NCBI GenBank assembly: GCA_026419785.1
Contig: JAODTK010003444.1
Span: 1 to 64,000, forward strand
Direction of reading: 5' to 3'
Source of the DNA: Sclerodactyla briareus
Taxonomy: Eukaryota; Echinodermata; Holothuroidea; Dendrochirotida; Sclerodactylidae
DNA: 64,000 nt
In this document: positions 16,682-58,600 of the stretch, piece after piece
How the letters are laid out: the number at the start of each line of letters is the position of its first letter
Numbering within the stretch: the stretch's first letter is position 1
The notes under the pieces: generated by a model
Told to the model about the DNA's origin: nothing
The model's database searches: none
Seen by the model: only the letters and a program-made list of their open reading frames with translations
Translations under genes and position numbers: made by a program

Positions 16682-17340
16682 AACGATTGCAGCTTGAAAT
16701 TATGTTGTTGGAGCGTGTATCCGCATTACATGGGGTTATGCCACATTCGCGCCTATGGCGTCAACTAATCTTAGGCTACCGTAGCACAGTGCCTCTGCTG
16801 AGGCTTGATGATAAAATGACTCGGCAACAGCCACACTTGACGATGACGATGGACCCAGCCAAATGAACTCTTGATTCAGTGCTTCGGTGGCATCCACTAG
16901 TAAATTTGCAAAACGTGCAGGTACGGACCTTCCTCGACCTGAAGGGGAACCTTGACCTGCCCTAATATAACACCTCACTCATATCGTCGACTCGGTACGA
17001 GCTTCATCGACTATTCATAATCAGCCATAACTATATTTAACATGCTGTTGTGGACAGGACTGTCACACTTTCTAATGCGTTTGATCCAACCTCAAAAGAA
17101 AAATAGGGATCATGCACAGCCATGGTCAAATACTAAAGGTACAAGCTTATTCAGGCAGGCAGGTCGACGTATGATGTTCCCAGCTCAAACTGGCCACAAT
17201 TTCACAGATTACCTCTGAATCTGGGGTGGATCATCACTAAGTTTATGTGGAAAAAATAGAAGGCTGGCCAAGATGTGGGAGTGTCTCAAGGAGTTGTAAG
17301 TCATCAGTGACCGAGGAGTGAGTCAATGAACAATAATATT

Positions 17341-18035
17341 ATGTCCCACCTTTGACAATGTCACACCCTGTCCAGGTTATAGGGGTGTGTCATTAGACCC
17401 ACCTCTGACAATGTCTCACCCTGTCCAGTTTATAGGGGTGTGTCATTATGACCCACCTCTGACATGACCCACCCTGTCAGGTTATAGGGGTGTGTCATTA
17501 TGATCCACCTCTGACAATGTCTCACCCTGTCCAGGTTATAGGGGTGTGTCATTACGAACCACCTCTGACAATGACTCACCCTGTCCAGTTATAGGGGTGT
17601 GTCATTATGACCCACCTCTGACAATGACTCACCCTGTCCAGTTTATAGGGGTGTGTCATTATGACCCACCTCTGACAATGTCTCACCCTGTCCAGTTATA
17701 GGGGTGTGTCATTATGACCCACCTCTGACAATGTCTCACCCTGTCCAGGTTATAGGGGTGTGTCATTATGACCCACCTCTGACAATGACTCACCCTGTCC
17801 AGTTATAGGGGTGTGTCATTATGACCCACCTCTGACAATGACCCCCCCTGTCCAGTTTATAGGGGTGTGTCATTACGAACCACCTCTGACAATGTCTCAC
17901 CCTGTCCAGTTATAGGGGTGTGTCATTATGACCCACCTCTGACAATGACTAACCCTGTCCATTTTATAGGGGTGTGTCATTATGACCCACCTCTGACATG
18001 ACCCCCCCTGTCCAGTTTATAGGGGTGCGTCATAC
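17341..18035. repeat. 54-bp minisatellite, ~13 copies
   Basis: Regular units with core CACCTCTGACAATGACTCAC, CCTGTCCAG, then TTATAGGGGTGTGTCATTAT. The part GACA-TGACTCACCCT, TCC, TATAGGGG, GTCAT is the same skeleton as the 47-bp array 4 kb to the right, so the two arrays appear related. Confidence 0.95.
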
Positions 18036-21484: not shown

Positions 21485-22605
21485 ACGAATTGACAGTGAC
21501 TCAACTCTCTGGGTATAGGGGGTGTGTAATACAATTGACCGTGCTCATCCTCCCATCCCATGGTCATGGGGGTGCTCATCAATTACAGTTGACTCCACCC
21601 TCTCCGGGGTATAGGGGGTTCAAATCATAAATTGACAGTTACTCCCCTCCCTGGGGAATAGGGGGTGAATCATACAATTGACAGTGACTCCCCTTTCCAG
21701 AGTATAAGTATAGGGGGTGCATTATACATGCCAGTGACCTCACCCCTCCAGGTATAGGGGTGCCTCATCACTTGCCAGGACTCCCCTTCCCGGTAAGGGT
21801 CATCATACAATTGACATTGCTCACCCTCCTCCGTGGTATGGGGGTGCATCATACACTTGACAGACTCACGCCTCCCCGGGTATAGGGGGTGCATCATACA
21901 ATCGACATGGACTCACCCCAGCGGGTTAGGGGGTGCATCTACCTTGACAGTGACTCCCCTCTCTGTGGGTAAAGGGGGTGCCATCATACGATTGGACAGT
22001 GGACTCACCCTCTTCTTCGGGTAAAGGGGCGCATCATACACTTGACAGTGACTCAACCTCATCTGGGTATGGGGTGCTCATAGCACTTTGACAGTGAACT
22101 CCCCCTCGCTCGGGTCTATAGGGGTGCATCATACAATGACATGACTCACCCTCCTCCGGTGTACGAGGGTGCATCATACATTGACATGGACTCACCCTCG
22201 CTGGGTATAGGGGTGCTCATACGATTGTACATGACGTCCCCCTCTCTGGGGTATGGGGCCTAATACAATTTGAGAGTGACTCACCTCTCCGGTCAAGGTA
22301 GAGGGTGCTTGCATACACTGACAGTGACTCACCCTTCTGGGGTATAAGGGAAGTGCATCTACATTGACAGTTACTCACCCTCCCCGTGTTCTAGGGGTGC
22401 ATCATACAATTGACAAGTGACTCACCCTCCTCTGGGGTAAAGGGGTGCATCATACATGACAGTGACTCACACCTCCCCCCCGGGTTAGAAGGGTGCATCA
22501 TACAATGACAGTGACTCACTCATCCCCGGATAATAGGTGTGGCAACTACAATTGACAGTGACTCAACCTCTCCGGGGTCCAGGGGCGCGTCATTCAATTG
22601 ACAAG
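21485..22605. repeat. 47-bp minisatellite, ~24 copies (duplication copy 1)
   Basis: Degenerate units with core TTGACAGTGACTCACCCTCT, then GGGTATAGGGGGTGCATCAT. Unit lengths wander by a few bases because of many one-base gains and losses. It occupies the same place in duplication copy 2 (27545-28675), so it predates the duplication. Open frames across it are shadows. Confidence 0.93.
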
Positions 22606-24900: not shown

Positions 24901-27900
24901 TTTCTAGGGAGGATAGGAAGGGATAATGATTTCCACAAAAGATCAATTCACTATAGAGTGCATTAGAACAATAATGGAGCCAAGGCAAAAAAAAAACAAC
25001 ATTTGCATTCTACAATAGCTAAACTTGCCAAGCGGGCACACCCCCTACAGAAGCAATTGACATGTTAGGTCGTCAAGTCCTTCACTGCTGGAAATTAGTT
25101 TCTGGATATTGTGAGAAGGACCTGGGTGGGGGGGGGGAGGGGATGTTCAGCTGATGCAAGTGTGACAGTGGCAAGGGAGATAGAGACAAACTGGTGCACA
25201 GTGGGAATGTGTTTTTGGTGGCAACAGTCGATTTTTTAATAAAAGGCTCAAATCGACCTCCGCGCCAAGAGTGTCCTCACTATTGTCACCCTACCCACCC
25301 TCCAGTTACCTAGATTCACAACTCAGAAGCCCATATTGAAATGGTACCAGCATGGATCAGTTCGAACAACCTTCCGAATGAATGAGTAAAAAATGAGAAG
25401 TGAGAATTGACTGAGCTGCACTGTTCCAATGACCTGCTGTTTATTTTGAACCTTTGTCTCTGAGGACTATATTTAATGGGGAATACATTTCTACTTGGCA
25501 GCATTCTATGTGATGTATTGGTGCTGGGAGTATTGCCTTCATTTTTTTCCTCCAATGTTTCGTGGTTCTGTGGATGTTATGGACACCTGTGTACCCGTGA
25601 AGCACCATCATACTCGTGCCGATAAATTCTAGGCATTGGTTTGATTCAGTGATAACGTCAAATCATTGGATTGCTCTTTTCTTGCACACAGCTCGCAGAC
25701 CACATCAAAATAGGAAACGGGAATAAGTTGATTTGCCTCTTTCTTTGAGACATCTAGGGCTCATAAAACCTGTGTCACACTGAGTGTGGCGATGGGTGTC
25801 TGTGCAAATATTAACGCATGTTGCTAAACCTCTCCTGCAGAGGGTGACCGTTGCAATATATTGATATACTTGCTATTATACTTCTAAACTACACAACAAA
25901 AAACTGCCCACTCACCTCTCCTCTGGTGACAAACTATATAAAAACTGAATAAAAGTGTCAACCCTGGCCTGTACTCTTACATACAAGAGGAATAAGACAC
26001 GCACTCTTGTTATATCTATCAAACGAGCTTCAGATAACATCTATGACAGGTATTGTGGGGTAACCTTATTTTCACCAATGGCTAATTCGAAAGAATTAGT
26101 AGGTAATTTTTACATAGTGATTACTATTTTACTTCAACTAGTTTTACAATGCAATTTTTTTCTTCTCCGTAAAATAGAGGCTCTTGCCAAACGTATATAC
26201 ACACATGTACACACCCATGTCTAATCGCATTGCTTGTAAAAATGTTTCCACATGTTTTCCTATGTTTGTACGAAGATATTAACCCCAGGTCCATTCAGAG
26301 ATAACGATATAATACACATGGTAAAGCAGGTGAGTTAATATCCAATAGTTAGTTTTTTAAAGCTACTGAAATACGGTATGGATATATATCGATTATAAGC
26401 CCATCTGGAAAAAAAAAACACTTAATAAAAGCCTTCACAAAAAACTCAACTCTCTTAATTGAAAAAAAGTTTTTTCACATCCCCCCCTTCAGTTGATATA
26501 ACTAGTCATGTAGCAAGGACTACCCCCTTGCATCCCCTGTCCTCCCCCACCCCCCCCCCCCCCCCCCCCCCGCCATGTAACACCAGAGTGTGGGCAGAGT
26601 CGTATTACCATGCTGGGGCCTAAAACTGATCAACAAGAAACCCCTAATGATGAAGCCTGTCATAGTTTTTTCAACACTCTCCCCCCATCAATTTTTCTTT
26701 CAACGTGGTATCCAGGATCACACCTCAAGAAGTGATCTAAAGTTCTTCCACGCATCCTACCGCAATCATAGACCTGGTGAGCACTATGACAATCTCATAG
26801 TGAGAGTGACAGCCAAGGGCCCGCACTCAGGTTCCTCTGGGGGAAGGGTGCATTAAAAATTGGGCACCAAGACATACTACATGGAGGGTTTTTTTCACCA
26901 TGACAGGCACTATCAGCTAAACCACTCCACCGCAGAATCCATATTGGTATTGCCACATCTGTGAGAAAGTGGACTCCCTAATTTCACTTTATCAACTCAA
27001 TATACAGGTATACCCTTGGAATACAGCTTGTCTGCTTACTGTTGATTGCTATTAACGCCAATAGTAGCCCACATAGTTTTAGGATTTCATTTCTTCTCAT
27101 TGAAAAGAACCCACACTATCCCACCCGGTGGATCACGATCATTCTTTTCTTTCTGCTTTCTTTTCTTTTGTAAATGAAGTAAAAAGACATTGCACCGACT
27201 TCGCTGTTGAAGCTTCTGAAAACGAGTGATCCAATAACAGTGGGATTATTTAAAAATTATATTGGGATTGGGAAACCACAATTGCATATCTCGAACTATA
27301 AACAAGGTGTGAACAGTAGGTATGCCCGGTATGGCATGCAGGTTATTGTTCTTGCATCGGAATAATTTCCCTTGAAATATTTTAGTTAGCGTTGAATGCA
27401 CCATCTGGTTTATATAACCATCTGATTCAAGTGGGGCGCTGTGGGGTGTTATAAAATCACTTGGATTTGTACAAATAATGGGAGACATGCCTACTGGTGG
27501 GTAAATTTCAAGAATTTTTCGTTCTCTGAGTAACTCAATGTGCACGAATTGACAGTGACTCACCTCTCGGGTATAGGGGGTGTTTAATACAATTGACGTG
27601 ACTCATCCCTCCCAGGGGTATGTGGGTTGCATCACAATGACAGTGACTCCACCCTCTCCGGTTATAGGGGGTGCATCACTATACGATTACAGTGACCTCC
27701 ACCCTCCCTGGGGAATAGGGGGTGAATCATACAATTGAACAGTGACTCACCCTTTCCAGAGTATAGGTGGTGCATTATACAATTGACATTGACTCACCCT
27801 CTCCAGGGTATAGGGGTGGCATCATACCTGACAAGTGACTCAACCCTTCCCGGGGTAAGGGTGATCATACATTGACATTGCCTCACCCTCTCCGTGTTGG

Positions 27901-30900
27901 GGGTGCCTCATACACTTGACAAGTGACTCACCCTCCCCGGGTAATAGGGGTGCATCATACAATCGACGTGACTCAACCCTGCCAGGGTTAAGGGGTGCAG
28001 CATAGCAATTGCAGTGACTCCCCCCCTCCCTGGGGTAAGGGTGTGCATCCACGATTGAACAGGACTCACCCTCTCCTGGTAAAAGGGCGCATCATAACAC
28101 TTGATCAGTGACTCAACCCTCTCTGGGTAGGGGCATCATACACTTGATGGACATTGACTCCCCCTCTCTGGGTATAGGGGTTGATCATACATTGGACAGT
28201 GACTCACACACCCGCTCCGGGGTTAGAGGGTGCCACATACAATTGACAGTGACTCACCCTCTCTGGGGGATAGGGGGTGCATCATACGATTGACAGTGAC
28301 TCCCCATCTCTGGTGTATAGGGGGTGCAGCATCATTGACAGTGACTCAACCTCTCCGGGGTATAGGGGGTGTGCGTCATCACTTGACAGTGCCTCACCCT
28401 CTCTGGGGTATAGGGGGTGCATCATAAATTGGGACGTGACTCACCCTCCCCGGGGTAAAGGGGTGCATCATACAATTGCCAGTGACTCACCCTCTCTGGG
28501 TAAGGGGGTGCATCATACAATTGACAGTGACTCACCCATCCCCGGTTTATAGGGGTGCATCCTACAATTGACAAGTGACTCACCTCCTCCCCCGGAGTCT
28601 AGGGGTGCAACATAATTGACAGTGACTCAACCCTAACTCTCCGGGGTCCAGGGGGGGGCGCGTCATTCATTGTGACAAGTGCATGAAGGCTCATAAGGTT
28701 GATGTCCCTTTTCTTCTTTCATTCTTCCAACCTTTCAAGTTTACTGACACAAAACCAATGTCACCTGATGTTTGTCTAACGACAGACACTCGGCTGCTTC
28801 CCATACATTAAACCCAGATAGGTATCGCTATACATGCTAGCACAATTTTCCATATATTGACATTTTGATCTGACACTTTGATAATGGAGATGTGTGCTTT
28901 ATCACAGCCCCAGGTAAAGGCTCCAGCTACATTCCTGTCAGTCAGATTCAGCTCTAGAGTCCTAGCTCTCAAACATTCTTTTTTGTGGGACTCATTTGCT
29001 GCGATACCTAGTCATGCAGTATTTACTTACGCAATTAATGATAGCACTTTGAGTACCATTTTTGTGATTATGAGTGCAAAACCCTTTAGTCATCTAACGA
29101 GGTGGATTCAATTTTTGGTCCTCCAAAATTACGCTTACATACCCCCCTGCTAAACGACATTCATTATTGGACTCGGTTAAAAATGAAGATGTAATATATA
29201 CAGAAGTCATTAGTTACACAGATAAAAGAAAAAGAATCCTCTGATGCCTCCATTCTGTTACATTAATGTTCGTTATGCTTGCCATCCCCATCATAGCTGA
29301 GACTACACAACATGGAGTGGCACTCACTGCACAGTTACCTACCTGGGAACTAATGTAACAAATGAATTTTGTCACATTGATGTGCTTTTAGGGGATCTCC
29401 ATTCGTGCGGGAGCGTCTACAACATGGCAATCACTGCATAGCTACCCCTCTGCACTAATAGTAAACTGCCTCCTGTCACATAATTGCTTCTAGGGAATCC
29501 CCATCCTTGCAGAAGCAGCTGCAACTTATCATTTGAGATTGCACATAGGAAACAACAACAGGTTTGTGCAAGTCGTGCAATCCACACCTTATAACGACAG
29601 TCACACTGATGTGATACGAAAAGTCACCTTCACCTGGTGCCTCAATGTGCGATAACGATGTGACTGTGGCATACACTGTACTGGGGCCTTTCTCAATGCT
29701 GTGTCCGCAATTCCGAGTGCTTGGTCCGGTCAAGGCGCGGGTCCGAGCATGTTCCGTGCTGTAGTTTAAACAACAACGACTTGTTCTGGGTCCTCAGGGG
29801 GGAGGAGGTTACCACGACCTTCTTGAATAAAAATTGAATAGTTCCAGGTTTGCTTGCGGTTTGGAAATCGATAAAGCCAAAATTTGTTTGTACATCATGC
29901 TTCTTCCGCTAAACAAACAACTTCATCCATTCACTGGCCTTCCAATTTCAGTCAGACAGATAGATAGATACATGAACAATAGGCGATTCGCCCAAAAGTA
30001 TCTCACCTGGTTGTGCGATCGGTGGTTTCTTATATTCACTACCACTCACCAACCAACTAGTTCATGCCGCCATCGTCATGTCAACGAACATTACATATTT
30101 CCAAACATATAACAAATAACATTCCTAAATAACTGACCAGTAAGTTTTGACTCTTATTACAAAGTCCCTATTGCTTTTTCCTTCTTCAAACATGCCCCCA
30201 CCCCCCCAAACTCTTCTCTGCATAGTTTTTATCGCTCAGTCCAACTACTCCTCACTCCTTGACCCAAATTCCAACTTAAAAATTCTAATCCCCCCTTAGC
30301 TACCCGGGTTTTTGCCTCTTAAAATCATTTCCTTCATTTTCATTGCCTTTTATTGTCCAAGCAGCCAGGACCTGCCATCCCCCCCCCCCGCCAGGCAAAA
30401 AGCGAACACCTCCCCCCCCCTCCCCCGCCTCCCCCACACACCAACAAACTAATCCCAGCAGAGTCACCGATGTCCCAAATGTAACCTTTAGGAAACCCCA
30501 AATTTTTCCCCAGTCCCCATGCAAGAAGAAGAGGAAGCAAAATGTTACCGTATTTTTGAAGGTCTAATCAACCTAATCAAAATTGGTTGGGTTAAGAGGG
30601 GTTGCTTGTGGGCAGCTTTAACAAATGTCCACAGGAGCTATGGTTACTCGTTTTTCCTCAGTGCTTATTTCTAACAGAAGCTATTATAGAATGGAATTCA
30701 ATCACATCCTCCTGAACAGCAATACATCAGATCCCATAAAATGTTAACGGACCTACCTACTGAGTTGGTGAAATTCTTACCAAGTTGGAAATTGGAATAT
30801 TTATGCATTAGGCACATTAACAACCCCCCCCTTCGTTTAAGGGGGCCTACTTAGAGGGGCAACTTACCTTCTGTCACAGGCAGATGTCCCTGAGCCAGCC

Positions 30901-38822: not shown

Positions 38823-41800
38823 CTGAAGAATGGGAAAAGGAAATAATTATAGGAGGTGAAGAATCCAGAAGACTTCATACAGTTTACAGTACTAAACCCT
38901 GTTCACCTAACTGCATGACAGTTGTATCACATTAGTAGTGTGATGGCAGTCATGCACATTCATAAGGCACAAAATACAAAGGTTCAATTGCCCTGGAAGA
39001 AGGGACAAAGAACCAACGAGAACCACAGAAGATGATTGGCACTAGATGAGCATGAACCTTTCAAGCCACTTGAAGATGTCAATATTTTGTGAACACAAAT
39101 TTCAAAAGGAGGGTTATTTCAAACTGTTGGTGCAGCTACAGCAAAGGTTCTAGTGCCACAAAAGTATTTTCATGCGAGGTCCAGGTTTAACAAATCGCAG
39201 TAGAAGACCAAAGACTTGCAATAAGTTTTACAGCATCTGGACTGAGAAATCACACATAACAAACCTAAATGAAAGCAGGTACTAGAACTAGCTGAAGACA
39301 AATATAAAATAATTTTGAACACAGGTGAACACTCTACTGAGAACCATCTTGTTGATTGACTTACTCTGTAGGAATGTTGTCTGTTGAGGCAGTGGCTCAT
39401 CACTGGCCATCGTGATGATGTTCTGTACGGCCGCCAGGATGGCCTGGTTGTGGCAGTCACGTAAAACACTTGCATTTTTTGAGTCCACCGCGTGGGATAC
39501 CTGTAAGAATGAAAGAGAAAAAAAAACACATAATGGATAGTGAAATTGTATGCAGAAGATTTATATAGGTTCTTTTACACAGTGATTACTAACCTTAGGA
39601 TTTAAAATGGGATGTTCTCCTTACTTCATGCTTTTGTTGAGCACCAAACACAATGGCAGATTCGCCTTTGTGAGAGGCATCCAGGCAAATTGTGGCATAA
39701 TAATACCCTCTCCCAGTTCTAACCCACCAGTCTTCGGTTTACCCCTGCAACCTCAACCATACTACCAGACTGTTCGTGGACATCCCAAATACGTAGTATT
39801 GGGGTTTCATTTTCTGGGAAATTCGCTGCCCCTTGCATTAAAAAATGGGCCAACTCTTCAAGTAGTTCAAGAGCAAACTAAAAATCACTTGCTGGAACAT
39901 AACACTAAAACCAGACTTGAACAAAGCAACTCATGCTAAATGTTAGACCTAACTCCTTGCCCCCGCCCCTCCTTAAAAATCACACCATTTACGTCCTGTA
40001 AGTTTTATGCTATGTTACGAAGGGTGCCAAGACTAGAAAAGTTCCCACTTATTTCTGGTTCCTCTACTCCCTCAATGTACGTTATTTAAGCCGACACTAC
40101 ATTTTCTGATTTTTATTGTATATGTTAGGTGATTTGTTGTAAAATGTTTTGGGGATAGTCGTAAATAAACTTGAATTGAATTGAATTGAGCTATGTAAAT
40201 GACGGTATACTGACATATATTGACAGCTGGCAGTCATAACATCAAGTCTGGCCCTGGGCGCGCTCCACGTAACTTTTCTAGCCAATAGTAGAGTCTGAGT
40301 TGCATGTTGCACACAATCGTGTTGAATATTCAGATCGTGCTTGATGTTCCATCTAACCAATCAGAAACAGGTTACTAAATCAGTAGCAGATTCAAAATGA
40401 GTTACACACAGCCTTGTCCATAATGTCCAGTCCAGAGAGTCCAGAGAAGCTTCAGGGTCTGTGAAGCGTGACACAGTAGGATCAATTGAAAGGACTGCCA
40501 ATCATAATAGTAATAAGTGTGTAGGAATGGCTGAATCAAGTGAACCTATGCCAGGTTCAATTTTTCAAATCCTTTGTATGAGCAGAGTAGTGGCCTGATT
40601 TGCAGACTAGAGGTTCTAGGGGTGTCCAATTTGCGGCGTCTTCAGGAGAACTCTGTCCAAGTGGTAGTCATGGCTGTGCAGGTGAGACATCAATACCAGG
40701 CACTGCGGCCACAGCTGTTTCTGTAAGGTCCCCTCATTGTTATTCTAATAATTAATTTGTATGGCGTGACTTGGAATTTTGGTTTGGCATCTCGGTATCT
40801 CCGTAGTATCTAACACAGAGTGACTGGACGGGCACTTCAATCCTCCTCGCAGCTTCTTCTACACAAACCCCGGTGATGGATCTCGAACTTAATGTAGTGG
40901 TTTATTCTCGGTTGCCGCTCCGATCTTGTGGAACGAGCTCCCGTTACAGCTCAAGTCGGCAACTGTACGTTAACATCTTAAGAGCCAAGCTTGTGAGACT
41001 GTTTAGTTTCTAAGGCATATTTTTTAGCACAAGTGCCTCCGAGCATTGGGTTCCTCTGGATTTTGGTGCTATATAAATGTATATTTATTACTATTATTAT
41101 TATCTTCAGGTCTGATCACTGATGAATATTGTTTAGCAGGTGGGCCTTATATCCTATTTCATGTGATGGAAGCCTACGATGCTATACATGTGTCAATACC
41201 CTGGGCATAGTCAGTCAAAATATGAGTCATTGTCAAATCAAATTGACTCCATGCATACTCTCCCTGAATGATCATTCGCAAAGCTGACTCTGGAGGGTCA
41301 CTTACTGGGAATGGGTATGAAACCCTGAGAAAAACTGGTCTACTAGCTGGTCTATACTAGCCGGTCTACTAGCCGGTATATACTAGCCGGTCTACTAGCG
41401 GTCTACTAGCCGGTCTATACTAGCCGGTCTATAGTAGCCGGTCTACTAGCCGGTATATACTAGCCGGTCTACGAGCCGGTCTATACTAGCCGGTCTATAC
41501 TAGACGGTCTATACTAGCCGGTCTATACTAGCCGGTCTATAGTAGCGGTCTACTAGCCGGTATATACTAGCCGGTCTACTAGCCGGTCTATACTAGCCGG
41601 TCTATACTAGCCGGTCTACTAGCCGGTCTACTAGCCGGTCTACTAGCCGGTCTACTAGCCGGTCTACTAGCGGTCTACTAGCCGGTCTATACTAGCCGGT
41701 CTATACTAGCCGGTCTATACTAGCCGGTCTATACTAGCCGGTCTACTAGCCGGTCTACTAGCGGTCTACTAGCCGGTCTATACTAGCCGGTCTACTAGCC

Positions 41801-44800
41801 GGTCTACTAGCCGGTCTACGAGCCGGTCTATACTAGCCGGTCTACTAGCCGGTCTACTAGCCGGTCTACTAGCGGTCTACTAGCCGGTCTATACTAGCCG
41901 GTCTACTAGCCGGTATATACTAGCGGTCTACTAGCGGTCTACTTGCCGGTCTACTAGCTGGTCTATACTAGCCGGTCTTTCTACTAAAGCCGGTCTATTA
42001 CTAGCCGAGTCTACTAAGCTGGTTATAGTAGTACGGTCTTTTTTTTTTTCAAACAAAGGACATGAGGAAGGGCGAACCATAATTGCCGAAACAAAGGCAC
42101 CCCCAAAGCACCCAATGAAACTAAAAGAAAGAGAGAAGAGAGCAGCTTGTTGTGATTCTACTTGAACCGTGGAGTCAAAATCAGGAGGAGGATACATCCC
42201 GAGGAAGCATATCCAGGCACGCGAAGGCGGGAAAAAAGGACGTGCGCAAGGTTTCGGGCAGATGACGTGGAAGAGCAACCGAACGGGTGGCTGGAAGAAG
42301 AAGAGCGAGTGAGTAAGGCGAGTAACCTCGAGTAACGGAGGAAACAGCATCCCCAAGCTCAGAAGAACATTGACCATAAAAGTAACGGGTAAAGGAGGCA
42401 GAGATGATACAGATCGGCGATGGGATAGAGATTGAAGTGAGGAGTAAGAGACCATCGTGATGAGACGAAGGCCTTTCTCTGGGAACGATCAAGGGGACAA
42501 GGAGAGAGGATGGCGAAAGACCCCCCCAATATATGGCAACCATTATTCCATTAGGGAGCGAATTTAGGGCTTTATAAAGCAGAAGTAGGCTGTTGTGGGG
42601 TGGAAGTATTTCCTTGGCAGAATAAGAAGCCCAACTTTCTAGAAGCTAGGTCTATACTAGCCGGTCTACTAGCGGTCTGACTAGCCGGTCTACTGGTGTT
42701 GGCTTACTAGCGGTCTAATAAGCGGTCACTAACTGGGTTCCTAGCTGGTCTTACTAGCTGGTCCTGGTCTACTAGACGGCTCTAATAGCCGGTCTACTGC
42801 TGGTCTATATAGCAGGTCTATATAGCCGGTTCTACTTTAGACGTCTACTAGCGGTTCTACTGGCTCGCGTCTTACTACGGCCTACTAAGCTGGTCTACTA
42901 GCCGGTCAAATAGCTGGTTCTACGAGCGGTCTCTACTTGCCGGTCTACTAGCTGGTCCTGGTCTACTGGCCGATCTACTAAGACGGTCTACTAGCTGGTC
43001 TATACTAGCCGGTCTACTAGCCGTCTAATGGCTGGTCTTACTAGCCGGTCTACTAGTGGTTACTAGCGGTCGACTGGTGTTCCGGGTGTTACTACTGCCG
43101 GTCTACGAGAGGGTCTCTAGATGAGTCTACTAGTGTCTACAGCCAGTTACTAGCCGGTCTACTAGCCGGGCTACGAGATGGCCATCCAAGGAATTGTAAG
43201 TCATTGAGTAGTACTCACGAATAATCAATGTATGAGGGAGCAAAATATCTCTGAGAGATTTTGGGAATATAAACTGGATAACAGTGTGATGGACTTAAAC
43301 AGCTGGGGAAGGACGATGTGGAAAACTTGACTGGCTAGAGAGGTATACTCATAGAGAATCCCAGCATCCTGCTCGTTCATGTTCATGACCAAAGTGGCCT
43401 GTGAGTAGAGAAATGTTAAAAATGGATATGTAAATCAGTGGACTGGAGTAAACAGGATTAAGTAGACGTGAGATTGGCAGGAGGGGAGTGTTCCAGTGCT
43501 GGGATACTGGGAGCCACAGTGAAGAAAAAAAAAATTCTGTAAAAAAAATAAGGCCAAGGTGGATGGACTCTAGGCACTCTAGGTTAGGATATCTTAAATA
43601 AAGATGCAGACATTGAGATCTCATAATGTAGGAATAGGCAGAGAAAGAAGTTTTAGTTTACATCCCACAAGAATTTATAAGAGGAGCAGTCTTCGTTTTT
43701 GGAGGTAGTTTGTTTCCCAGGCTTGGTCAAACCAATGAGCATTACAATCTCCAAAAAGAGATCAGTTACCCGCTGACAGAGCTTTGGTGAATGTTTGACA
43801 TGTGCAATTAATGTTATCGTTTTATCTTTCCATGTGCATATGCAAATTGCGGCCAGACTGGTTTAATTGTAAACAAATAGGTCACATCATCACAGCTGTT
43901 TTCACTGGCCCGAGTAGTAGATTAATTGCTACATGCTATCTATCAATGAATCTGTCGTTACACTCTGAGAATTTTTTTTGAGGGAAATTAATCTGTTGAA
44001 TGAAGATGCATGTGGGGTAGGAGGCACCTGCAAAAGGCCTCACTGTGGCGCCTACGGCCTCAGGTTTAGGTACTCAGGTTGAGCATTACAAAACTAATCA
44101 GATTCTCAAGGTTTGCCCATGTTTGTCCTCAGAAGCTGGCCCCTAACACAGTACATCAATCCTAATAGGGAGAAGGATATATACATGAGATGTGCATCCA
44201 CCTTAGGCCAGAAACTATTCAACAAGCACGGCCAGTGAGCCACACAAGCATACATATTGAGATACATATGGACATGACTACACAGAGTTTCAAGTACAGT
44301 CAGGCAGAATAAGAGATAATAAAATATCACAGCTTTGGTGGCCATTCCAAAGGGGTACCTCCATCCTCAGAAGAGCAGGGCTAGACGACTTTGTATCAAA
44401 AGCTCGAAATAGCAAAGTGAAATAGGACTATCAAACCCCACATCTCAAATGTGGGAGTTCTTGAATGTTGCCTTGTTGAGATGTTTCATTTACTTTCAGA
44501 AATTTGAGGAATCTACGACATCACGGGGGAAATGATGCATAAGTGCCACCCATAGTCCCTATCACAGTAAATGCTGCTTTTGCGCAATTGTTAAACAGGA
44601 AAGACGAAGCAAGGGTATCACTAGGAAAAAATGACACATTATTGAATATTCGTGAAGATTTGAGCTTCTATTCTGACCCAATCTATGTGTGTCGGTACAG
44701 GATAAAATACCATGTATATATTGACTGTTGTAGTATAGGAATCCCGCGGTGCCCCCAGTGATTAAAGCCACATTTTGAATTTGGATGGGTTTCAGTTGTC

Positions 44801-47800
44801 AAATGTGAATAAACCGGACGTAACCAAAAGTCCAGGTCTTATATACTGGACCCATTGGCCTTTAAAGCTGAGTTGCGCATGCAATGCGTTTCAGCAAGCT
44901 GCACCATCATCCCTTGCTGTGATACCCAACAGGGGGAGATACAGGGATCTACAAACAGATGCAGAAGCTTGGGCTCTAAACCTCCTAATCGGACCACTCA
45001 CATAAAAGTGAGCAGCAGCTTGTATCCTCGGCTTTAAACCTAATCAGAGCATACCAGTCAGTGAGCAGCAGTACTGGATACGTGCTTTGAACCTCCCCAG
45101 AGCCACTACCTAACAGTGAGCAGCAGTACTGGTATACCTCATGCTCTGAACCTATCGGAACCCACTGACCATAACAGGAAACAGCATACTTGTGGTATGG
45201 CTTTATTTAAACCTAACTAGGAGCCACGACCATAACAGTGAGCAGCAGAGTACTCGTATCCTCGTGCTTTAACCTAATAAGAGCCACTGACATAACAAGA
45301 ACAGCAGTACGTATCCTTGTTGCTTTAAAACCTAATCGGAACCAGTACCAGTAACAGGAACAGCAGTACTTGTACCGGTGCTTAAACTAATCGGAACCAC
45401 TTACCATAAACGAGTGAGCAGCAGTACTTGTATCCTCGTGCTTAAAACCTAATCAGAGCCACTTACCATAACAGTGAACAGCAGTACTTGTATCCTCTTG
45501 CTTTAAACCTAATCAGCGCCACTTACCATACAGTGAGCAGCAGTACTTGTATCCTTGTGCTTTAAACCTAATCAGAGCCACTTACCATACAGTGAGCAGC
45601 AGTACTTGTATCCTCTTGCTTTAAACCTAATCAGCACCACTTACCATAACAGTGAGCAGCAGTACTTGTATCCTCGTGCTTAAAACCTAATCAGAGCCAC
45701 TTACCATAACAGTGAACAGCAGTACTTGTATCCTCGTGCTTAAAACCTAATCAGAGCCACTTACCATAACAGTGAACAGCAGTACCTGTATCCTCGTGCT
45801 TTAAACCTAATCAGAGCCACTTACCATACAGTGAGCAGCAGTACTTGTATCCTCGTGCTTAAAACCTAATCAGAGCCACTTACCATAACAGTGAGCAGCA
45901 GTACTTGTATCCTCATGCTTTAAACCTAATCAGAGCCACTTACCACAACAGTGAGCAGCAGTACTTGTATCCTCATGCTTTAAACCTAATCAGAGCCACT
46001 TACCATACAGTGAGCAGCAGTACTTGTATCCTCGTGCTTAAACCTAATCAGAGCCACTTACCATTACAGTGAGCAGCAGTACTTGTATCCTCGTGCTTTG
46101 AACCTAATCAGAGCCACTTACCATAACAGTGAGCAACAGTACTTGTATCCTCGTCCTTTAAACCTAATCAGAACCACTTACCATTACAGTGAGCAGCAGT
46201 ACTTGTATCCTCGTGCTTTAAACCTAATCAGAGCCACTTACCATACCAGTGAGCAGCAGTACTTGTATCCTCGTGCTTAAACCTAATCAGAACCACTTAC
46301 CATACAGTGAGCAGCAGTACTTGAATCCTCGTGTCCGTGAGGACCTCCTCGTTCAGGAGCACATTCTCTGAGGGGGTCGAGACCTTCCTCTCCTTTCGCG
46401 ACTTGGGTACCTCCATACTGCTGCTCTCCGCTGGTCCTGCGCTCATGACGGAGCCTCCTCTCTGACAGGGTCAGGTCCCCGCTAGACCCGCTCACCAATA
46501 TCTCTGGGCTCCGCCCCGAACGAGTTGAGGCACCCTGGTAGGGAAGGTTCAAAGTTCAAGATATCAACCAAAAAGACAGTGGGATTGACTCGAAATAAAC
46601 CTAAGCATAACCAAATTAAACAACCTGCAGTGCTATACTAAGCTTCATCTTCAAGATAAGGAGTTTAACAGTTGGGCTCTTTTGTATTTCTGATTGAGCT
46701 ATTTGACCCATGGCCTGGGGTGTGAATAAAATCAGAGTGATGGTCTGCGGTCTTGTTGGTGTTTCTGTCATTGGCTTTGTCCTGTTCTGTTTGCGGTTAG
46801 TAAGTAAATTAAGGGCCAGTATGGACAGTTTCCTCTCTTGGCAGTAACTTGTTTTTACTGTCCTTGCATCCACTGGCTGCATAGAAGGCATAGTGCAGGC
46901 ACAGGAAATTTAAATTCTATTTTGAATTGGGTGTTATGATTGTGGGGGTGAAATCAGTGTACCTTCGTAAAAGCTGGTGGGAAAGTTTTCCAATTTAGGT
47001 AATAATACCAGTGTGTGCACAGGGAGGGGGTCGGAGGAATGGGGAGAAGAACTATGCAAGGAAAATTAGAAGTGGGTGGAAAAATTAGAAATGGGTGGAA
47101 AATGAGAAATGGGTGGAAAAATTCAGAAAGATTCTGTAACTGCTCACTTCCTGTGTTTCCTTTACATGTGAAGGAGAGGATTTTAGGCATGTCATGAGAA
47201 TTTTTTTAGGCAAGTGTCACAAGTGAGCTCTATGGCCGTGAAATTCAGCCACTGAAGGAGGAAGATTAGAAAGTAATGATATGAGGATGGTCGGGCAGGT
47301 GTGTGCGTGTGTGTGGCATAGCAATAACTGTCGGATGAGTAGAGAAGTCACTCAGGTCTGCCTGAACACAGGATCGGGTTCACAGTCATAGACCGTGGTG
47401 GATTGGTATGATGAGAGGATGGATGGTGACTGGGTCAGAAAATCTGGAAAGACGATTATAGCAGTTGCTTGACATAGCAGAGGTGAGCAATGAAGATTTG
47501 GGACTGCTAGAATGCACCCTAGCTCTAAATAGAAGCTCAATAGAGGAAGGTGCACCATGCAGTTGCAAGTTGGATGTGTACAAATCGCGCTACACATACC
47601 TGTGAGAGGTCCAAGCTCTTGTACTGTTTCAGTGGAGACTTGTCCATGCAGAGTGTGTGTGCTTCTGGAGTGCTGAGTCGAGGCTCCGATGTGGTCTTAT
47701 TGCGTTCTGGACACCAGGGCTCCGGTGAGGGGGACTTGAGCTTCTTGGAGGGGGACCGGGCTGGGCGTGGTGGGTCATTGCAAACACAGAGTTGTCGATT

Positions 47801-55600: not shown

Positions 55601-58600
55601 CAGTAGCTACCATCACACCAATGTCCACCACCTGCCCCACTGTTTTGGGGCACCATGCAGTGACCCCTCACATAATTTACTCGCCTAGTTCCTAGAGGTT
55701 ATAGTCATTTTAGGGGCAATTAACGATGCTCTCCACCAACATGAGTCCAACTGGCTGGTGGTATGACTGCCACTCTGAGCTGATTAAGCCAGTAAGTAGC
55801 AGGCCTGTCACTACTCGTGACCAGTCTTGAAAAAAAGCCAACCCCCCCCCCCACTCCCATAATTCTACTCACCCGTTCCAGTAGTGGCTGTAGTCGTGTC
55901 AGGGCAATCATGATTATCTCCACCAACATGAGCCCCCCTGGCTGTGGTCAGCCTGCCACTCATGTGTCTGAGATGGTACATCCGCAGTACAGTACCAGGC
56001 CTGTCATTTTACGTCTGCCCAACCCCCCTAAACGCCCGCCCCCCCCACTCCCATATTTTACTCACCCGCTCCAGTAGTGGCTGTAGTCGTGTCAGGGCAA
56101 TCACAATGCTCTCCACTAACTGAGTCCCCCTGGCTGGTGTCAACGCCACTCCATGTTCTGGACTGACTCGCCAGGTACAGTAGTAGGCCCCTCACCTGGC
56201 TCGTTGATGAGGCCTTACTGATGCCTCCCAGACGCCCCCATCGCCCGGGCTGCATGGGCCGGGTTGTGCTGGAACGCAAACCTGAAATGGGAAAATGAAC
56301 AAAAGTTTTTTGTGATAATCACTATCTAACTACAAAACATAGTTTGTGGCAATAAACTATTCACAAATTTTAACCAGTAATTTTTTTTTTCTGAACTTGC
56401 TCACCTGAAGTTTGGCAAATCAACCCCAAATTGTCATTAGGATAGCTGAGTCCGGCTTTCAATCTACCCTGGGATAGATTTTTTTTGAAAAAAAGCAGGT
56501 TCGAAGCTGAAGCTGTCTGTCCACAAAACCTAGCTTGATACCAGATTTGAAACAGAGTTTGCACCAAACTCTCAAATTATGCTGGAATTAGGAAATTGAA
56601 CAAAAATCATAGAAAGCAGGTTTTATAGATAGATTGAAATCCTGTTTGTCTACAAAAGGAATGGCTGCCAAAATAATTAGTTTTGGACAATGATTCGTCT
56701 TCCAATTATCTGTCACTTTGTTGTCATTGTCTGTACCCATGATCAATCTTTTATGTCTTTACTATCCATTTCACATTCCCACAGCTATGCATAGAACCTG
56801 AAACACACACCTCCTCTCCTCTGCTATGCAGAATGGTAGAGTGGTATCAAGTGACACTTTACACTACCGAAATCTTCTTAGTTTGAATTCCTGGTGCTGT
56901 ATTTGCTTTGGCAATGGCAAGGTCTCGTTCTTCACTTCCACTCTGTTCACCACACTGTTATGCAGTGGATTTTCTGGGTTTATTGGGGTTCCTTGGGGAT
57001 ATTTGCAATAATGTGTCTTGGCCCTGGAGATATGGGACTTGAACTTTCAACGCCTCCGGGTTCCGAGAAAATGGTGGGGTCCTGGAGTTCACTAATGGTC
57101 CTTTCGGATGGGGGACATAAAATGGCGGTCCCCGGAGCATGTTGGGATTGGTTAACCCCCCGCCTCGTTAACATCTGAAGCACTAGCCAAGAAGAGAAGG
57201 CTAGTTATCGCCGGCTCATCCCACGAGCAATACAGCCAGGGTTCCTAGATGCCCCTCATTGGCTTCCTGAACCCGAAGAAATCATATTAAATCGAAATCA
57301 AATGCTATTATCACTCATCAAGGTGATCTGTCTGGTGGTGGTGCAGAGCTTACTGGTTGCTAGGAGCCCAGTTAACTGCACGATTAAGTATGAGGACAGG
57401 TGTGTGCATGAAGAGCTCCAGAATGCAGAGAAAGGCATTTTCACTTTGTCATTATTATATTAACATAAAGCATTATCTTTGTATACAGAAAGTGAATGTG
57501 ACAAAAGCAAGCTGGCAGAGGAAGTTACTGGATACTCCATCAAAAGAGAGTCTGGTCCACTCCTGCAGCCATTTGCAGTCAGGTATATCCCTCATACAAG
57601 CCTGTGGACACATAAAAGTATAGAATACATTTTCAATGAAAAGCAACTCCTTGTAAACCATGGTTCTCAGTACTGTCCTATAATTGTTTATTTTATGCAA
57701 AATAACTGAACAATAACATGTTAACTACAAACATCGATTGAGGTGATGTGCAAATCTGCTGAATTATTTCTTTCAAACAGTTCCTTCTCAAGAATACTAC
57801 AACATGGAGACTATATTCATGTTTTCACTGATCTATCACTCTTTTGCAGACCATCTGTGATAGCCTTTTTTCAGCCCAGAGGCATCATTTCTTGGCATTC
57901 TGAAGGTTGCTAATGCAGAACTCCACCTTAATCAATCATCAGAGAAAAGTGTGACATTTCAGTTCTCTCCTTAATGTCGGTCCAGCAGTATCTATATGGT
58001 GGCATTTATTTCTCTGTACACTTTGTCTGGCTGGCCTGTCTCAGTGGCTATCCCTGAATGTAGTCACCACAGTCAAACACCTTGAGAGTGCATTTTGACT
58101 GACCTCCATAATTTCCAGCAGTGCATCTGTGATAGCTTCAAGGTAGCTCAGGGGCATGATCTCTGCACTCTGACCCGCCGGCCTCTCCCTGTAGCTGGAC
58201 CTGAATGCAGTCACAGCAGCCGACTTCACCTTACTGATGCCGAACATCTGATAGAACTTTGGCAGCGAGAACTCTGTCATCCAGATGCATGATTTTCTGG
58301 GTCTGTCCTCTGGACATGGGTGTGAAAATAGTATGTGACTAAAATTGGCAATTGATTTGTTGAAAACTGCATAAATACCTGTCCTTGTTGTACTTGTAGG
58401 AAAGCAGACTACTGATGCCTTATCTTTTGGGAACAACGCTCAAAATGTCCTTGTCCGAGCCATTGGCAACTTGACAACCCACCTAATAAATAGCCTCAAG
58501 GTATCAGACGAAGGAGCCAATCCTAGTCAAGTCCTGAGCAGGATTGATCCTGAATCTTGGCACTATTACTGTTGGTGTGTAGTATCGTGAGCTGCTGTTC

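Follow-up and report, generated by a model that had tools for sequence, protein, structure and literature searches.

A minisatellite across an exon-intron boundary of an NF1 homologue forms a large mirage with sixteen donors of equal predicted strength

The window analysed here comprises the initial 64 kb of contig C2258 (576,251 bases) and carries on its minus strand part of an NF1 homologue, whose pieces, colinear with human NF1, extend between 88.4 and 38.7 kb of the contig. A search of the whole genome with the joined NF1 exon peptide gave six matches, all six of them on this contig, and no second, intact NF1 copy was found by that search. The NF1 exon peptide had no match in PDB, and Pfam assigned no family to any of three NF1 exon peptides. 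The exon at whose end the repeats described below begin is recognised by its 3' part, in which 21 of 29 residues are identical to human NF1; further upstream the exon is open in a different frame, and an assembly indel is the likely reason. The exon at 39365 had been taken in the initial annotation as the next one along the gene. The next exon starts at 43398, and 39365 lies one exon beyond it. The coordinates of these features are collected in Table 1.

Table 1. Features in and around the NF1 array, with coordinates in the window unless the contig is named; a slash marks the exon-intron boundary.
Feature	Coordinates	Strand	Description
NF1 exon	46301..46534	-	3' part 46389-46303; candidate acceptor CTACCAG/ before 46534; G of donor GT at 46300
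Unit 1	46275..46332	-	exon 3' end, donor ATG/GTAAGTGG and about 26 intron bases
Units 2-16	45380..46274	-	near-identical copies, donor in each at -10.2 kcal/mol to U1 5' end
Units 17-23	44973..45379	-	decayed, indel-rich; best GT per unit -4.2 to -6.9 kcal/mol
Next NF1 exon, aligned part	43306..43398	-	acceptor CTACTCACAG/GCC; CACAG/GCC ACT TTG = ATLV
Exon after next	39365..39500	-	weak match to human NF1, 18/53
56.1-kb duplication	55664..56160	-	NF1 exon stretch and donor CGG/GTGAGT; about 187 bp, 3 copies; second 55929-55867, third degraded
73.2-kb duplication	contig C2258 72656-73268		about 161 bp, 4 copies, GTAAG kept in 3/4
76.1-kb duplication	contig C2258 75581-76091		about 110 bp, 4 copies and partial fifth, GTAAG kept in 3/4
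Comparison array	41337..42039		period 26, following intron; no exon sequence recognised

The initial annotation had described a tandem array of units of about 60 bp in an intron of NF1, opened by a first unit that holds the true end of the exon with its donor and some intron bases and continued by about 21 further units. This array is borne out by two methods. TRF reports it at 44984-46333 with a period of 60, 22.9 copies, 85% match and a score of 1857, and wrap-around alignment lays it out as 23 units in head-to-tail order, each about 60 bp long (46332-44973, minus strand), so that the array itself stands and the count becomes 23 units in total. The first unit does contain the conserved 3' end of the exon, and the 33 exon-like bases that had been ascribed to most well-preserved units are found in the consensus, where another 27 bases come from the intron side; individual units among 1-16 measure 58-60 bp. 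Alignment of the exon end with the units confirms their homology, the identity to unit 1 being 90-95% for units 2-16 and 71-80% for units 17-23. The sequence of the array occurs at a single locus in the 319.5-Mb, 3171-contig assembly, as judged by a search that skips very common words.

At column 9 only unit 1 among the 23 has T, which there gives a synonymous Ile codon, while 21 of the 22 others have A and unit 22 has a gap. Further in, when variants were compared among units 1-16, a T at column 22 was found to be common to units 10, 11 and 15, and a T at column 56 to units 8, 10, 11 and 15. The private base of unit 1, together with inner variants held by separated units, fits the turnover of a minisatellite beside a boundary copy that is under selection. 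Units 2-16 contain 11 indel bases and 24 substitutions per 900 columns, and units 17-23 contain 45 indel bases and 37 substitutions per 420 columns; the distal units, heavy in both, are therefore probably older and also poorly assembled.

Frame-aware alignment covered 30 exon stretches of the gene; the 25 with a score of at least 60 gave 24 frameshifts and no stop in 1144 aligned NF1 codons, of which 722 are identical to human NF1; the scoring penalises stops, some frameshifts at exon edges may be effects of the alignment, and the five alignments dropped hold two more frameshifts. This amounts to a frameshift for about every 143 aligned coding bases in the assembly, and so the phase of single bases is unreliable. 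Plain tblastn gives in-frame stops at some of the places where the frame-aware alignment reads frameshifts. Judged from the sequence, most of these frameshifts look like assembly indels, since the long decay of a pseudogene should also have brought stops and a loss of identity, and the NF1 gene that carries the array is probably functional. The same frameshifts, which in the absence of stops suggest indel errors, could lead one to regard the array or its copy number as a product of the assembly of noisy reads, and the rise in indel bases from units 2-16 to units 17-23 would agree with this. Such an origin is very unlikely; non-adjacent units share variants and the units differ by substitutions as well as by indels, which is not expected from read errors, three more duplications of boundaries in this gene have different periods, again unlike read errors, and the indel rate of 1.2% in units 2-16 is near the coding background of about 0.7%.

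Single bases bear directly on the reading frame at the array. To be read in its conserved ATLV frame, the exon at 43398 must follow an exon that ends at a codon boundary. A length compatible with this is found in ten of units 1-16, six of them ending exactly ...ACT GTT ATG/; units 1, 6, 9, 13 and 14 (5/16) lack one base (...ACT GTA TG/), and unit 16 has two extra bases. Since unit 1 is among those that are short as assembled, donor 1 is out of frame with the next exon. Five of 16 exceeds what the background indel rate would lead one to expect, and the shortage may therefore be a real variant or may have been moved between units by the building of the consensus. A weak donor, ACT/GTATGG (-2.3 kcal/mol), offers the only in-frame joint seen as assembled; it was rejected, an assembly indel being more likely. 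Alternatively, the clash of one base at donor 1, the frameshifts spread across many exons and the in-frame stops that plain tblastn gives at some sites could all belong to a decaying pseudogene allele of NF1, in which the array would be unconstrained. This is highly improbable, as the genome search found no NF1 copy but the one described here, and 722 of the 1144 aligned codons are identical to human NF1, with no stop among the aligned codons (under a scoring that penalises stops).

Each donor, for which a splice-site model had been proposed, was scored by its predicted pairing energy with U1, which is a rough measure of a donor and not a trained model. The donor sequence is ATGGTAAGTGG in 15 of units 1-16 and GTGGTAAGTGG in unit 7, and all sixteen have the same energy. 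Units 17-23 (7/23) have lost their donors, the best GT found anywhere in the unit reaching only the values in Table 1. As a yardstick, 16 hand-picked donors of NF1 range from -4.5 to -13.2 kcal/mol with a median of -9.95; these donors, the 14 acceptors used below and the 20 donors of the rotation test were picked by hand or by score near the ends of exon matches. A row of some 20 equivalent 5' splice sites had been claimed for the array, and a row of equal donors is indeed present, its number being 16 (units 1-16).

If later donors were used, it had been proposed, the protein would gain multiples of 20 codons. On the assembled sequence this is refuted: all 15 unit-to-unit extensions between donors 1 and 16 contain a stop in each of the three frames, and blocks of 20 codons are therefore not insertable by way of later donors. 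As assembled, TAA directly follows the codon that spans donor 1, whichever of the 14 downstream donors tested is used (unit 7 left out). An mRNA spliced at a later donor would carry an early in-frame stop, which would be expected to lead to loss of function or nonsense-mediated decay and not to a longer neurofibromin. Micro-exons of the size of one unit, which had been thought conceivable from an acceptor-like TGATTAG in each unit, are also unlikely. Pyrimidines make up 40% of the tract before TGATTAG, and their median share in 14 candidate acceptors of NF1 is 77%, although these acceptors were taken as the most pyrimidine-rich AG near the exon start, a choice that favours their pyrimidine content. 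Furthermore, TGATTAG ends 18 nt after the start of the unit's donor, a distance below the usual length of a spliceosomal intron, so that only a donor farther upstream could use it. In phase 0 the putative micro-exon from TGATTAG opens with GTT TAA.

Sixteen equal donors with stops in every extension between them are also what would be found if the array were a splicing switch, in which the use of a downstream donor would give a stop-containing mRNA that is destroyed, and neurofibromin would thereby be lowered in some tissue or state. The 11 donor columns of units 2-16 show one change in 165 cells against 17/450 and 14/285 in the other columns, which speaks for this possibility; the low count is, however, unexceptional, as 6 of 60 circular blocks of 11 columns are as low, and selection on the donor copies was for this reason not detected. 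Moreover, in units 17-23 the donors have decayed at roughly the pace of the remaining columns (14/77 changes in donor columns, 32/210 and 20/133 elsewhere), and the passages on splicing in PMC3087553 and PMC3902484 report comparable arrays in lancelets with undisturbed splicing. A switch of this type is thus quite unlikely.

The NF1 unit spans an exon-intron boundary, and a single authentic boundary copy is followed by an intronic remainder with many splice signals, a donor being present in 16 of the 23 units; at one column, column 9, the boundary copy stands outside homogenisation. Arrays of this kind in lancelets are called mirages, for which Canestro 2002 is cited. The relevant passages of PMC3087553 and PMC3902484 describe the mirages of lancelets (amphioxus) as minisatellites over exon-intron boundaries, found in Adh3, the globins BflGb6 and BflGb9, troponin C and PGBD5. 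As described there, the repeats hold the end of an exon, a splice signal and adjoining intron, as in NF1, and the real splice site likewise belongs to the first or boundary copy; their units measure 10-160 bp, PGBD5 having arrays of 60 bp and 108 bp, and the NF1 unit of about 60 bp falls in this range. In the passages concerned, PMC3087553 reports that copy number is unstable and varies between haplotypes, that the boundaries of the clusters escape homogenisation (in the globins it is the boundary copies that do so, as at column 9 in NF1) and that RT-PCR data for Adh3 and the globins suggest no interference with regular splicing, and it suggests that new introns may arise by way of mirages; those of PMC3902484 state that the Adh and troponin C mirages generate no aberrant mRNAs. 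The NF1 array differs in its size, with 23 units and 16 intact donors in a row against the 2-7 units given in these passages for the lancelet globins and PGBD5, and in its gene and perhaps its lineage, which may not be that of lancelets. In weak tests for lancelet markers, a lancelet fluorescent protein and the GFP family gave no match, with no positive control responding for GFP, and calcium vector protein gave a single match at 45% identity; exon-by-exon searching is insensitive, myosin having yielded eight matches. COX1 was also not found. The best match of the guanidino kinase exons is 3ju5, a sea cucumber arginine kinase, and the animal may perhaps be an echinoderm. It is a large, genuine mirage of the kind already published in lancelets. 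The array suggests that mirages may occur beyond lancelets, in which case the lineage may be new for the kind, and a literature search found no NF1 array of this kind named in titles or in the openings of abstracts. There is also a warning here, as arrays of this sort may mislead gene prediction into false exons; false calls are discussed for lancelet PGBD5 in the part of PMC3902484 that treats that gene.

Two human systems are related to the array. The minisatellite of IFI6 (6-16, G1P3) supplies multiple splice donors according to the passage on it in PMC4526556, which cites Turri 1995, and there, as in NF1, the repeat units add 5' splice sites downstream of the first. Two of the downstream repeat donors of IFI6 are described in the same passage as being used, with different isoforms as the outcome, whereas in NF1 all 15 extensions are closed and no in-frame isoform would come from a downstream donor. 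For human segmental duplications, the relevant part of PMC2812944 describes exon-intron boundaries that carry tandem repeats; these repeats too are expansions of boundary minisatellites that may create or alter introns, but they vary from one paralogue to another and some of them are linked to new introns, while no new intron is evident at the NF1 array.

Three further local duplications span exon-donor boundaries of the same gene, near 56.1, 73.2 and 76.1 kb (Table 1). Local direct duplications were surveyed over 294 kb of the 576-kb contig; they account for 6.1% of the sequence examined and for 13.5% of the stretch from 38.6 to 90 kb. In a rotation test, four of 20 hand-picked NF1 donors lie inside duplications against 2.69 expected, a fraction of 0.25 of the rotations reaching four; special targeting of splice donors by duplication was therefore not detected, at the low power that 20 donors give. 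At eight myosin exon loci elsewhere, a small sample, no duplication covered the matched exon (0/8), and two loci had one in another part of the locus.

Taken together, it is likely that a neutral minisatellite overran a splice junction of NF1 and became a mirage, with turnover in the intron and use of the first donor. A segment of about 60 bp that by chance straddled the 3' end of the exon would have been duplicated in tandem, and its copies would have expanded and turned over within the intron as in any minisatellite, while unit 1, being the exon copy, would have been held by selection on the protein outside homogenisation. Splicing would commit to the donor of the exon, the first to be transcribed and the one that bounds the exon; units 2-23 would leave with the intron. 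Several points count for this reading: the array donors are as strong as ordinary NF1 donors, local duplications are abundant and cover donors about as often as expected, and published mirages are described alike in the passages cited (PMC3087553, PMC3902484). Other points count against it. As assembled, unit 1 lacks one base, which puts its donor out of frame with the next exon. Competition experiments with several strong donors indicate that the spliceosome can favour the one nearest the acceptor; unit 16 would then be preferred, which counts against first-donor use. The array is of value as a test, set up by nature, of what decides when the spliceosome meets many equal donors: the order in which they are transcribed, how near they are to the acceptor, or chance. 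A broader proposal is that, outside lancelets, duplications of junctions recur within one gene (four in NF1), that sixteen equal donors are tolerated as the first one transcribed wins almost absolutely, and that the leakage, through nonsense-mediated decay, tunes NF1 dose by copy number. The dose of NF1 matters in people. This proposal is unlikely; were it true, nature would here have run an experiment on how 5' splice sites are chosen.

Some further repeats were observed. In the 56.1-kb duplication the first two copies are both open over the matched part, and an alternative pair of exons is conceivable. On the same contig, a 19-bp unit is repeated 3.2 times at 65042-65102, starting about 20 nt past the NF1 donor at 65121, and a unit of about 151 bp in about 2.7 copies at 107379-107795 contains a sequence resembling an acceptor together with a short open stretch and may be a duplication at the acceptor side of an exon. 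On other contigs, local tandem duplications lie near myosin exons and outside the matched exons (L035 596-1061 and L037 1056-1394). Within the window, minisatellites are also present at 17338-18033, 21488-22603, 27547-28634 and 42649-43075, besides the comparison array of Table 1; three of these five have 13-21% indels, and the consensus units of those at 21.5 kb and 27.5 kb are nearly identical.
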